IMG/VR virus record: IMGVR_UViG_3300030388_001268
Coordinates: 1 to 26,885 of that record
DNA: 26,885 nt
Strand: one strand, 5' to 3'
Origin: a virus
The notes under the pieces are model-generated. The model had not been told where the DNA came from. It saw nothing but the letters and a program-made list of their open reading frames with translations, and did not search any database. The stretch's first letter is position 1, and every line of letters starts with the position of its first letter. The position numbers and the translations under genes are program-made. Below are positions 23,788-26,885 of this stretch, piece after piece.

Positions 23788-23820
23788 ACCCCAACCCTTA
23801 AAAAAGGTTGGGGTTTTTTT
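23788..23820 (+). terminator. Strong terminator after DNA polymerase
   Basis: ACCCCAACC (23788-23796) pairs with GGTTGGGGT (23806-23814), a perfect 9-bp stem with a 9-base loop, followed by TTTTTT to 23820. It ends the replication operon. The T-tract touches the stop codon of the convergent ATP-grasp gene (23819-23821). On the reverse strand the stem is followed by AAAG, so it is not a good terminator in that direction. Confidence 0.9.
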
Positions 23821-24568
23821 ATTTTAACTCGGTATAAATAGCTTTTGCTAAAGCACCACCTACAACATTATTAAAAGCTGCAAACATGGGCCCGCTGTTT
23901 ATTTCTAAAAAAACATCTCCCATAAAATCCGCCGCGCAAAAAGTTAAACCTAAACCACGCGCCACGGTTCTTACCTTATTTACCATGTCTGGAGAAAAAT
24001 AATGCGACGACACTTTCGTATGGGGATCATCACGGTAATCCAACTCCGTAGTTTCTAACTTAAAACCAAAATGCTGTTCTCCTATTAAAAACAAACGTCT
24101 ATTTGTCCCCTTCATACGATGTTGGATAATACCTGTGTACAACGATTCATTACCTGACTGACAATGCAGACCCCCCGTAAGTGGTTTAACAATGCAATCG
24201 CCGTCTATAGGCCCCTTACCAATAATTGTGCGCGGTATTTTAAGACCCGCGGCTAGGGCTCGACGAAGATTAGCGGCCTTGATAGGGGTTATGTGGTCAT
24301 AGTTTCGATTATAACAGGCTATCTCTGGATTAGATTTAAGATAATTAACCATAAGATACCAATTATTATACCGTTGGTGTGTGTTTTCACTAAAAACGTT
24401 AGCTCTGCCAAAAAACCCGCTAATAGTAACAGGTTCTCCACCCTGCACAAGAATGTTTGTGTTCAAGTCCCACGTATAATCAGCCTCCTGATCCAGAAAC
24501 AAATCAAAATATGGTCGTAATGATGCAATGTTCGGGTCCTGCATCTGGCCAAAGAGAACAAAACTCAT
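23819..24568 (-). CDS. ATP-grasp ligase-like protein (249 aa)
   Basis: 249 aa. The second half has the ATP-grasp pattern: IVKPLTGG (K128 and the Gly-rich phosphate loop, 126-133), GIIQHRMKGTNRRLFLIGEQ (adenine-binding strand and hinge, 146-165), and FCAADFMGDVFLEINSGPMF, where E222-x-N224 and D214 are the expected Mg-ATP ligands. Residues 87-115 (YNRNYDHITPIKAANLRRAL... IPRTII) resemble the pre-ATP-grasp segment of RimK-like and graspetide-ligase-like enzymes. Such enzymes activate a carboxylate by phosphorylation and join it to an amine, alcohol or thiol; the substrate here is unknown. Start chosen at 24568: AGGAGGT lies six bases upstream, better than an ATG at 24592. The gene runs against all its neighbours and has its own divergent control region, like a moron. 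Confidence 0.8.
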   Translation of the reverse strand: MSFVLFGQMQDPNIASLRPYFDLFLDQEADYTWDLNTNILVQGGEPVTISGFFGRANVFSENTHQRYNNWYLMVNYLKSNPEIACYNRNYDHITPIKAANLRRALAAGLKIPRTIIGKGPIDGDCIVKPLTGGLHCQSGNESLYTGIIQHRMKGTNRRLFLIGEQHFGFKLETTELDYRDDPHTKVSSHYFSPDMVNKVRTVARGLGLTFCAADFMGDVFLEINSGPMFAAFNNVVGGALAKAIYTELK

Positions 24569-24583
24569 AAATTTACCTCCTTT

Positions 24584-24640
24584 TTCTTGCATTCTTGCAT
24601 ATTATCTTATAATATCCTAGACAAAGCGAGGCTTGGAGAG
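24584..24640. promoter_or_regulatory. Divergent control region with dyad and tandem repeat
   Basis: Two tandem copies of TTCTTGCA (24584-24599) are followed by a perfect 7-bp dyad ATATTAT-CTT-ATAATAT (24599-24615). The dyad contains TATAAT (24608-24613), a good forward -10 for the ribbon-helix-helix gene, and on the reverse strand TATAAG/TAATAT, usable as a -10 for the ATP-grasp gene. Neither direction has a strong -35 (TTGCAT forward, 15-base spacer). GGAGAG (24635-24640) is the ribosome site for the forward gene. GACAAAGCGAGGCTTG (24620-24635) is the right copy of the flanking hairpin motif. Confidence 0.6.
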
Positions 24641-24646
24641 AAAAAA

Positions 24647-24829
24647 ATGGATACAACACGTTGGAAAAGTGTCCTCGTACCACGCGAGGTCTATGAAGAA
24701 ATAAAAAAACTGTCTAAAGCAGAGGGCCGAACCATTGGAGGGCAACTTCGATTGGTATTTGACTGGTACAAGGACGCACAAACCGCGGATCACGAAGCTG
24801 TGGTTGAAGATACTGTTAATGACAAATAA
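24647..24829 (+). CDS. Ribbon-helix-helix (CopG/ParD-like) regulator (60 aa)
   Basis: 60 aa. KSVLVPREVYEEIKKLSKAE followed by GRTIGGQLRLVFDWYK matches the ribbon-helix-helix layout: a short N-terminal strand (SVLVP), helix (REVYEEIKKLSKAEG), turn, and second helix (TIGGQLRLVFDWYK). Such proteins dimerise and insert the beta strand into the DNA major groove at short dyads. The acidic C-terminal tail (DHEAVVEDTVNDK) is probably disordered. Start at 24647 behind GGAGAG; an upstream in-frame ATG at 24587 overlaps the promoter and lacks a ribosome site. A matching dyad lies just upstream, so autoregulation and control of the divergent ATP-grasp gene is a natural guess. No toxin partner is seen. 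Confidence 0.7.
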   Translation: MDTTRWKSVLVPREVYEEIKKLSKAEGRTIGGQLRLVFDWYKDAQTADHEAVVEDTVNDK

Positions 24830-25330: not shown

Positions 25331-25360
25331 TTGACACGAACGCATAAAATCCCATATAGT
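25331..25360 (+). promoter_or_regulatory. Sigma70-type promoter
   Basis: TTGACA (25331-25336), 18-base spacer, TATAGT (25355-25360). Transcription would start near 25367, giving a leader of about 20 bases before the AlpA-like gene, whose GGAG site is at 25377-25380. It begins six bases after the preceding stop. Consensus -35 and near-consensus -10 point to early expression by host RNA polymerase. Confidence 0.75.
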
Positions 25361-25386
25361 AAGAACACATAACTATGGAGATTACT

Positions 25387-25749
25387 ATGTCAAATAAAAT
25401 AATGCTTGCAAAAATAGACGTTTGCAAAAAATATGAAATTAAGGCCCCAAAATTGGAATATCACATAAAAAAAGAATCTTTCCCTAAAGGAGAGATAATC
25501 AACGGTATGCGCTACTTTAGTGAAGCTGAAATAGAAAAATACGCTGAAGCTAATAAAACGTTTAAAAAACCTTCCCACAAAGAAATGGGTAAAGCTGAAG
25601 CCATCGACTACAACCTTACAAATAATAACGTTTGGGTAAACGTGGCCCCAGAACCGTGGTACATCCGACATAAACTCTTGGTTCGAGCCCTCTTAACAGC
25701 AATCGTGGCAGGAACCGCCGCCGCAATCGTGTCGAGTGTTGTAGGATGA
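25387..25749 (+). CDS. AlpA/HTH_17-like DNA-binding protein with C-terminal membrane helix (120 aa)
   Basis: 120 aa. Residues 8-54 match the small MerR-superfamily fold of AlpA, excisionase and HTH_17 proteins: KIDVCKKYEIKAPKLEYHIK, then SFPKGEIINGMRYFSEAEIEKY (the FP-x-G wing followed by a terminal acidic helix). Residues 57-75 are a charged linker. Residues 98-118 are a single hydrophobic helix (LVRALLTAIVAGTAAAIVSSV) after WYIRHK, ending two residues from the C-terminus, so a tail-anchored topology with the DNA-binding domain in the cytoplasm is likely. Start at 25387 with GGAG six bases upstream; an in-frame ATG at 25375 would place the ribosome site inside the gene. Own promoter. The stop overlaps the next start. 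Control of an integration/excision or early switch is possible, but no integrase is visible. Confidence 0.65.
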   Translation: MSNKIMLAKIDVCKKYEIKAPKLEYHIKKESFPKGEIINGMRYFSEAEIEKYAEANKTFKKPSHKEMGKAEAIDYNLTNNNVWVNVAPEPWYIRHKLLVRALLTAIVAGTAAAIVSSVVG

Positions 25750-26111
25750 AAGCAGTTATCAAATTGTGGGGCGAAGATCGCGAACCATTGGCTGAATTAA
25801 TTGTACCGCAAGACAATTATTATGTTGAGCGGGTTTGGAAAATGGCTGACGAAATGGCATTGAATTTGTCGCATTCGGATAACTGGGGCTTGGAGATGAC
25901 AATTACGGCTGATTATGCAAACCCCGCGCCTAAAAAGTTAAGAGGGCCCGACATACATGGATTGAAGCAAGCTATTAAAGCCTTGGAAGACTTACTAGAA
26001 GAACCTGATGTATTACTAGGTAATGCTGTTGAGTCAGGTGGCAAACTATACTCAGACACAGCCGCTGGCTTAATGAATGCACTAGAAATACTAAAAGGAG
26101 ATTCAAAATGA
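25746..26111 (+). CDS. 121-aa hypothetical protein
   Basis: 121 aa (MKAVIKLWGEDREPLAELIV... LEILKGDSK). The N-terminal half looks like a beta-rich strand pair (VIKLWGED, LAELIVPQDNYYVERVWKMA). The C-terminal half is helical with an acidic run (IHGLKQAIKALEDLLEEPDV). No catalytic motif. It starts in an ATGA overlap with the AlpA-like gene and overlaps the next start, so it belongs to the same short operon behind the promoter at 25331. Function unknown. Confidence 0.6.
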   Translation: MKAVIKLWGEDREPLAELIVPQDNYYVERVWKMADEMALNLSHSDNWGLEMTITADYANPAPKKLRGPDIHGLKQAIKALEDLLEEPDVLLGNAVESGGKLYSDTAAGLMNALEILKGDSK

Positions 26112-26215: not shown

Positions 26216-26403
26216 ACGAAGGGTCAACCGATTACATAGCAAAGTTAATGCTTGAAGATTCAGTGAAGGCGTTTAAATCACGAGATCATTTAGTTAAAAA
26301 ACTGATTAAATTAATTTATACAAAGGCTACCATCGAAGAGCTGCGTCATTTCTCCAAGATGTTTGACCGTCTAGCAGATGAACAGGAAAGAAATAACTCT
26401 TGA
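26212..26403 (+). CDS. 63-aa helical hypothetical protein, probable GTG start
   Basis: 63 aa (MNEGSTDYIAKLMLEDSVKA... DEQERNNS). Start chosen at GTG 26212: GGGG lies seven bases upstream and the codon overlaps the preceding stop; a TTG at 26209 is an alternative. Almost entirely helical (DYIAKLMLEDSVKAFKSRDH; IEELRHFSKMFDRLADEQER), perhaps a helical hairpin. Its TGA (26401-26403) lies inside the -35 of the next promoter. No family recognised. Confidence 0.6.
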   Translation: MNEGSTDYIAKLMLEDSVKAFKSRDHLVKKLIKLIYTKATIEELRHFSKMFDRLADEQERNNS

Positions 26404-26428
26404 CTTTATCGCATACCTGTGATAGTAT
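26400..26428 (+). promoter_or_regulatory. Promoter-like sequence for the last small gene
   Basis: TTGACT (26400-26405), 17-base spacer, TAGTAT (26423-26428); predicted start near 26435. A second pair inside the leader, TTGACA (26482-26487) with CATACT (26504-26509), 16-base spacer, could be an alternative promoter or chance. Confidence 0.5.
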
Positions 26429-26434
26429 GTATTT

Positions 26435-26522
26435 ATAGGTGGGAATAACCCATCTTATGAAGCGGGCAAGCTTCATGTTCTTTGACAATGGACCACGGTC
26501 CTACATACTACGGAGGTTTACC
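26435..26522 (+). promoter_or_regulatory. Structured 5' leader (three inverted repeats)
   Basis: Stem 1: AGGTGGG/CCCATCT (26437-26443 with 26449-26455), loop AATAA. Stem 2: ATGAAGC/GCTTCAT (26457-26463 with 26470-26476), loop GGGCAA. Stem 3: GGACC/GGTCC (26490-26494 with 26497-26501), only two bases between arms, more likely a DNA dyad than an RNA hairpin. Stems 1 and 2 begin at the predicted transcript start. GGAGG (26512-26516) precedes the ATG at 26523. No T-tract follows any stem, so this is not an attenuator of the terminator type. Confidence 0.5.
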
Positions 26523-26732
26523 ATGACTGATTATAATCAGTTGAGTAACGAAGAACTATTACAGTTCTATCGAAACGCTTTAGAAACTTATTCTGGAGCT
26601 ATTGGGCATCAGAAAAGTCTTCGCAACGAGAATGCCGCAAAAGTATATGCGGAAATTCTTAAAGAGAGAGGACAAACTGTTCCTAACTCTTGTGAAGGAA
26701 AAGGCGTTTATAATGGTGTTGGCTCAAGCTAA
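26523..26732 (+). CDS. 69-aa helical hypothetical protein
   Basis: 69 aa (MTDYNQLSNEELLQFYRNAL... GVYNGVGSS). Two helices (NEELLQFYRNALETYSGAIG; LRNENAAKVYAEILKERGQT) and a flexible Gly/Ser tail with one Cys. Start at 26523 with perfect GGAGG six bases upstream; the frame is open back to 26439, but that would cover the structured leader. Strong ribosome site, own promoter and own terminator suggest a monocistronic, well-expressed early gene. Function unknown. Confidence 0.65.
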   Translation: MTDYNQLSNEELLQFYRNALETYSGAIGHQKSLRNENAAKVYAEILKERGQTVPNSCEGKGVYNGVGSS

Positions 26733-26770: not shown

Positions 26771-26885
26771 GCGGTGCGGTTACAAATAAACGCGTTATAT
26801 GTATATAGGAGCTGAAAAAAAAAATAAAAGTTTTTTGTAAATATAGGCGTAACCGGTGTAACCGTGTAACTTTGGTTGTTTTCTC
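26771..26885. other. Noncoding stretch with 9-bp tandem repeats at window edge
   Basis: No convincing gene. Contains A- and T-tracts (ten A residues near 26815, TTTTTT near 26831) and tandem 9-mers GGCGTAACC, GGTGTAACC and GTGTAAC (26846-26870). An inverted GGTTAC lies at 26778-26783. Tandem short repeats beside AT-rich sequence resemble iterons or protein-binding arrays, so an origin, regulator or integrase-arm site is possible. The reverse strand is open across the stretch but low-complexity and lacks a start. Confidence 0.5.

Follow-up and report, generated by a model that had tools for sequence, protein, structure and literature searches.

An AlpA-like winged-helix protein with a predicted C-terminal membrane anchor and a tandem-repeat operator in a group of uncultivated phages

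The window analyzed here is the whole 26,885-nt stretch of the viral record IMGVR_UViG_3300030388_001268. It carries an ORF that is open throughout and encodes a 120-aa protein, preceded by a promoter, a repeat element and the gene for a small ribbon-helix-helix (RHH) protein. The features of this region are as follows.

24587 to 24611, plus strand: promoter region of the RHH gene with a degenerate operator, GCATATTATCTTATA, from sequence comparison
24647 to 24829, plus strand: gene for the RHH protein, 60 aa, the rival candidate for reading the operator (RHH_5 match below threshold; relatives in IMG/VR)
25331 to 25360, plus strand: sigma70-type promoter TTGACA-N18-TATAGT, matching 11 of 12 consensus positions; -35 box and spacer conserved in 19 loci
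25340 to 25356, plus strand: putative operator within the promoter spacer, ACGCATAAAATCCCATA, made of 10-bp units in tandem, conserved in 19 loci and recurring group-wide
25377 to 25380, plus strand: ribosome-binding site GGAG, conserved across aligned loci
25387 to 25749, plus strand: gene for the AlpA-like winged helix-turn-helix (wHTH) protein with predicted tail anchor, 120 aa (18 close IMG/VR homologues; 57 distinct complete family members)
25417 to 25554, plus strand: predicted wHTH domain, residues 11-56
25654 to 25674, plus strand: juxtamembrane PWYxxHK motif, residues 90-96, recurring partially before the helix in several clades
25675 to 25743, plus strand: predicted C-terminal membrane helix, residues 97-119, from hydropathy and the structural model
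25746 to 26111, plus strand: downstream ORF from the ORF list, overlapping the AlpA-like gene by ATGA
26400 to 26428, plus strand: promoter-like sequence from the promoter scan, TTGACTTTATCGCATACCTGTGATAGTAT, carrying one CGCATA unit equally far from the -35 box

The GGAG is spaced six bases from the ATG of the AlpA-like gene, and a second in-frame ATG at 25375 overlaps it in 18 of 18 homologous loci. Pfam and PHROG searches with the downstream ORF gave no match. Divergent from the RHH gene, and with a common upstream region, lies a 257-aa ORF (23819-24592, minus strand) with a 259-aa counterpart in G018. A 69-aa ORF (26523-26732) has a subthreshold match to Nuclease_act, the anticodon nuclease activator (E=1.9e-4, 21.8 bits, cut-off 25). 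At 26459-26489 stands a leader hairpin, GAAGC-GGGCAA-GCTTC, followed by TTCTTTGACAAT, which we take to resemble the rrn/lambda boxA. In 17 records, GGGCAA is flanked by five complementary pairs (GT allowed) in 30 of 305 cases, whereas for the reversed loop there are none in 202; these 30 hairpins have many different stems, and leaders hold some but not all of them. Hairpin and boxA-like stretch are possibly a nut-like antitermination site.

The first-pass annotation of this DNA had placed an AlpA/HTH_17-like domain at residues 8-54. Pfam HTH_17 matches the window protein at residues 11-56, albeit at E=0.0029 and 18.3 bits against a cut-off of 27 bits, and PHROG gives no match at E up to 1. Within the close alignment, HTH_17 is matched by 4 of 12 members (E up to 1). 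Among divergent homologues, 4 of 10 pass the HTH_17 and/or Phage_AlpA cut-off (L062, L085, L086 and L122; best scores 32 and 29.1 bits), and all 10 scanned match phrog_66, "excisionase and transcriptional regulator". An AlphaFold2 model built with 24 family sequences shows a β-α-α-β-β-α winged-helix fold at residues 6-55 (block pLDDT ~79-85 over residues 11-60), with a mean pLDDT of 73 and a pTM of 0.41 for the model overall. In a PDB comparison of the modeled domain, two viral DNA-packaging entries rank first (Z 7.7 and 7.5), followed by NmlR, RdfS, BldC, RacA and pSK1 Par, among others, at Z ~6-7; all matches stay below Z 8, and such values alone are not telling. Taken by profile and model, the N-terminal half of the protein is predicted to be an AlpA/MerR-type wHTH, in line with the AlpA-like domain first proposed.

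The C-terminal half ends in a hydrophobic segment. A single arginine, R100, lies within the hydrophobic last 24 residues, and the best 19-mer (residues 97-115) has a mean Kyte-Doolittle (KD) value of 2.17, which is reached in 120 of 20,000 shuffles of the protein and in 13 of 20,000 within nine residues of the C-terminal end. The model forms a detached helix at residues 96-119 (block pLDDT 71-80), matching the single helix annotated earlier at 98-118; the alternative then envisaged, a helix buried in a soluble core, is not what the model shows. Across 24 family proteins tested, the hydrophobic moment is low (0.01-0.13), arguing against an amphipathic surface helix. The absence of a periplasmic domain, also claimed at first pass, extends to the family, since beyond their best 19-mer the 32 helix-bearing proteins have 0-9 residues left. 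The charge before the helix (K+R-D-E) ranges from -2 to +3 and is not uniformly positive, hence the membrane topology can be deduced only weakly. Comparison of the window protein with L007 and L008 separates the two halves: the HTH is 79 and 75% identical, the C-terminus 29 and 32%, and the tails have KD values of 2.05 and 2.15. The helix sequence has thus been swapped under a well-conserved HTH while its hydrophobicity was kept, and hydrophobicity itself seems to be under selection. As far as sequence can tell, such an exchange is what a membrane anchor predicts.

Whether homologues keep both domains was asked at first pass, and nearly all of them do. An IMG/VR scan yields 18 contigs with proteins 53-100% identical to the window protein, and the C-terminus is hydrophobic in 18 of 18 as judged by eye. 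The wider family was found with an HTH-only model run over 75 RHH loci (L055-L129) at E<1e-5; the model derives from proteins first chosen by a hydropathy filter but covers HTH columns only. It matches 55 of the 75 loci, of which 5 are cut at the contig end and the remainder represent 33 distinct complete proteins, 32 of them with the C-terminal helix. Pooled with a second scan (44 loci) and other loci, the family comprises 57 complete and distinct proteins, which fall into 19 clusters at 70% identity, although the underlying loci overlap or repeat near-identical contigs. By hydropathy, 56 of the 57 proteins, in 18 of 19 clusters, are single-pass and tail-anchored, having one C-terminal hydrophobic helix of about 19 or more residues; such a tail occurs in 20 of 139 ORFs of similar length from the same loci. 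In the sole member without the helix, L074 (5581-6063), the AlpA HTH runs in frame into an RHH domain. The fusion lies ~40 bases from the contig end, and over 126 bases its RHH portion shares 98.4% identity with the separate RHH gene of that contig, so it may be an assembly chimera or artefact.

The linker between wHTH and helix varies in length and sequence, and identity to the window protein drops to 16-25% outside its own clade. Homology of the window clade to the rest of the family is therefore deduced from position, architecture, fold class and the similar PWYxxHK-helix C-terminus and not from strong HTH identity. With regard to position, an AlpA-type gene stands downstream of the RHH gene in 49 of 55 RHH loci having at least 1,500 bases downstream. 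In one of the other six (L117) it is found further along the contig, 4 kb away, and in L190 11334 a gene 4 kb from the RHH gene still has the hydrophobic C-terminal helix. Among 17 RHH contigs searched, most of them chosen as known gene carriers, 5 (5.3-10.9 kb) have no match to the family alignment. The view that membrane-tethered DNA-binding proteins are uncommon in phages may hold overall, but within this group such a protein is usual.

Among 50,697 records of named phages, tblastn found no full-length homologue. Three queries were used: the window protein and a homologue from clade B matched nothing, and a divergent homologue picked up three weak matches, confined to the HTH and spanning 28-34% of its length, in two Nitratiruptor phages and one Vibrio phage. 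Two alignment scans of GTDB bacterial and archaeal genomes confirmed no relative. By DNA polymerase, the closest named phages are DSL-LC04 (57%), 023Pt_psg01 (53%), HTVC023P (49%) and HTVC027P (48%). In the literature covered, mostly outside subscription journals, we found no description of tail-anchored AlpA-type phage proteins, and a term search of one paper on HTVC023P-type pelagiphages (PMC9599517) turned up none of the words AlpA, helix-turn-helix, transmembrane, integrase and promoter. A profile search alone would label the members AlpA-like or excisionase, or leave them unnamed like the window copy, and the anchor would be overlooked.

Expression of the AlpA-like gene appears to be tied to a repeat element. 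Its promoter is the best of nine sites found in a promoter scan, against 8.5 expected from shuffles; since the scan itself is no richer than shuffles, the promoter owes its credibility to conservation, the -35 box and much of the spacer being kept in 19 of 19 aligned loci. The spacer contains TCGCATANNATCSCATA, a 10-bp unit repeated in tandem. Precisely 18 IMG/VR contigs contain the pattern TTGACANNNRCGCATAAWATCCCATAT, namely those with close homologues; the pattern was derived from the same contigs, and the informative part is its absence everywhere else. A looser form of the operator, with at most one mismatch, turns up 66 times in 70 RHH loci that lack a close AlpA homologue, and its reversed pattern not once. 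Ten long contigs (427 kb) hold 37 sites against 0 reversed, and 17 records (424 kb) hold 59 against 1 when at least 13 of 15 positions are matched, 51 of them outside ORFs; these site sets overlap, and orthologous sites inflate the counts (G023 and G026 yield identical sites). In a motif-free count, CGCATA and TCGCAT are the commonest intergenic 6-mers repeated at 10-bp spacing, though repeats belonging to other arrays, spaced at 8, 9 and 27, outnumber those at 10 bp in total. ATCGCATA ranks first or joint first among intergenic 8-mers in 9 of 16 records, the window not being among these nine.

The units stand in up to threefold tandem. They occur in both orientations relative to TTGACA or -35-like boxes, which fits an operator better than part of a core promoter. 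On these comparisons, the recurrent tandem GCATA element has the hallmarks of an operator. The stretch just before the AlpA-type gene was judged by eye in 36 loci, some of them near-identical: 22 show the element clearly and 3 weakly, and in the remaining 11 an ORF overlaps the gene start or ends within ~26 bases. G022 (53.8 kb) is a counter-example: it encodes both proteins, yet sites appear there only when two mismatches are allowed, and then four. Four named phages that lack the gene (W01-W04) served as controls; with up to two mismatches allowed, they show 0, 1, 1 and 3 sites, compared with 0, 1, 1 and 0 for the reversed pattern, and one of those in 023Pt_psg01 has a single mismatch. We rejected the repeat as a phage-polymerase promoter: a T7-like RNA polymerase was found in 0 of 9 phage contigs while the T7 positive control matched, and transcription is thus presumably carried out by the host polymerase.

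Two proteins could read this operator. One is the AlpA-like protein, binding head-to-tail with one protomer per 10-bp unit. The units are tandem, asymmetric and repeated up to three times in a row, the AlpA-type gene has them in its own promoter, and there is precedent in the head-to-tail wHTH proteins BldC, RdfS and lambda Xis, the first two of which match the modeled fold at Z ~7. BldC, a 68-residue protein, binds 9-bp direct repeats head-to-tail (PMC5859096), and RdfS occupies ~10 bp per molecule (PMC11963761). As at BldC and RdfS sites, the repeat in the AlpA-gene promoter has about one turn per unit, binding of the AlpA-like protein to it being putative. The recognition helix nevertheless differs completely between clades, KAPKLEYHIKK in the window clade and SxPTxYRRxK-like elsewhere, under the same operator, so the AlpA-like protein may not be its reader. 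When k-mers were counted in search of an element particular to the window's AlpA class, none was prominent by eye. We therefore hold recognition by the AlpA-like protein to be possible, with the balance somewhat against it.

The other candidate is the RHH protein, encoded 0.7 kb upstream of the AlpA-like gene. It matches RHH_5 at E=6e-4 and 19.9 bits against a cut-off of 26, has at least 246 relatives in IMG/VR (80 loci kept) and gave just three chance-level matches to named phages. Its N-terminal 45 aa are nearly invariant across the group, although this conservation is partly by construction as the loci were gathered by RHH similarity. One contig of 10.9 kb (L189, G031) has the RHH gene and four operators at up to one mismatch, with no AlpA-type gene found between the RHH gene and a terminase-small-subunit-like ORF or elsewhere in the contig. 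In the second scan, both genes occur in 38 of 43 loci, and the other five have just 25-1,002 bases upstream; co-occurrence is thus too tight to separate the two readers. We lean, without confidence, towards the RHH protein as an equally good or better reader, and it is a possible master regulator of the phage group.

A further repeat array lies at 26849-26870. This iteron-like GTAACCGGTGTAACCGTGTAAC has AT-rich flanks, is nearly identical in the divergent sister phages G019, G020 and G025, and is a candidate replication origin. Its GTAACC units were considered as the target of the AlpA-like protein and rejected, as the array stays nearly the same in divergent phages and does not track the AlpA recognition helix.

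What the AlpA-like protein does at the membrane can be read in several ways. We consider it somewhat more likely than not that it is a phage-encoded, tail-anchored DNA-binding protein which docks DNA at the inner membrane and whose synthesis is controlled through the operator. The C-terminal helix would insert into the inner membrane with the wHTH facing the cytoplasm, and the wHTH would bind specific DNA, most likely the phage's own, leaving the bound DNA docked at the membrane. The pay-off might be regulation of bound promoters, organization of the replicating genome, or both. Synthesis of the protein would be set at the operator, whose reader would be either the AlpA-like protein or the RHH protein encoded upstream; self-reading would amount to autoregulation through head-to-tail binding at one turn per protomer, as in BldC. 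Retention of HTH and C-terminal helix across very different relatives suggests DNA docking on the inside of the membrane. Counterpoints are the HTH score below the Pfam cut-off, the marginal insertion score of the helix, fold matches below Z 8, the lack of close operator sites in G022 and the helix-less L074. Of the ideas put forward at first pass, a DNA-binding domain on a membrane anchor is strongly supported by family-wide conservation, and both holding of phage DNA at the membrane and membrane-held regulation are consistent with it. Sensing of the infection state and release by proteolysis found no specific support; no sensor domain follows the helix.

Membrane-held regulation would mean that the anchor keeps the wHTH inactive or in position until a membrane event or a protease frees it to act on phage or host promoters. 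The phrog_66 matches of all 10 divergent homologues and the variable linker fit such a transcription factor, but it would have to work without a sensor or extracytoplasmic domain beyond the helix, and we consider it rather unlikely. Less likely again by a clear step is a soluble protein whose hydrophobic tail is an oligomerization device or a C-terminal degron instead of a membrane anchor. The family helices are rich in Gly and Ala with small-xxx-small patterns such as GGLLAG, a naive sum on a Hessa scale is marginal for the window helix (+0.5; the worst member, L107, at +1.8), and L074 has an RHH domain where others have the helix. Against this stand the 19-mer KD values of 1.7-3.2 in the 24 proteins tested, with hydrophobicity staying where the sequence is replaced, and a model with a separate helix, low pTM and no core. 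A conventional AlpA/Xis excisionase or recombination directionality factor whose tail is incidental, as the names of the nearest PHROG and Pfam families would have it, is very improbable given the conserved tail and 12 records, five of them 52-56 kb and some perhaps incomplete, that gave no match to tyrosine integrase (PF00589; control matched 14 of 14) or large serine recombinase (PF07508; control matched 3 of 14), an excision role thus being unlikely.

Docking of DNA, the reading we favor, has partial parallels in known systems. The AlpA and HTH_17 excisionase-type regulators (PF05930, PF12728, phrog_66) share the wHTH by profile and fold, whereas the phage family has a C-terminal membrane helix and no integrase was found in these phages. 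BldC likewise is not known to have a membrane anchor. RacA, the Bacillus chromosome anchor, resembles the window protein in its MerR-like wHTH of similar fold but anchors through partner proteins, while the window protein carries the membrane helix in the same chain. In phage phi29, p16.7 has an N-terminal anchor and a homeodomain-like DNA-binding domain; here the anchor is C-terminal and the domain AlpA/MerR-like. CadC and ToxR end in a C-terminal periplasmic sensor domain, for which the few residues after the helix of the phage proteins leave no counterpart. RacA anchors chromosomes at the cell poles (cited in PMC5859096) and binds as a symmetric dimer (PMC5859096). The phi29 membrane proteins p16.7 and p1 have been proposed to keep phage DNA or its replication machinery at the membrane, p16.7 acting on terminal protein and ssDNA (PMC4974454), and CadC and ToxR combine DNA-binding and membrane parts within one chain (PMC5430869). 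By analogy, RacA and phi29 p1/p16.7 would be the nearest functional parallels, the architecture being common to none of these systems.

In a more specific and distinctly speculative form of docking, which we regard as unlikely, the tail-anchored protein on tandem 10-bp GCATA units would zip early promoters onto the inner membrane and so couple silencing to genome placement. Units one helical turn apart would set the protomers on one face of the DNA with their tails pointing the same way. If this were true, superinfecting DNA might perhaps be captured at entry as well. Only for a few phages, phi29 being one, is it known where the DNA lies in the cell and what keeps it in place. A compact wHTH with a tail anchor in a sizeable group of uncultivated phages, together with a definable operator network, would offer a simple system in which DNA docking can be tested.
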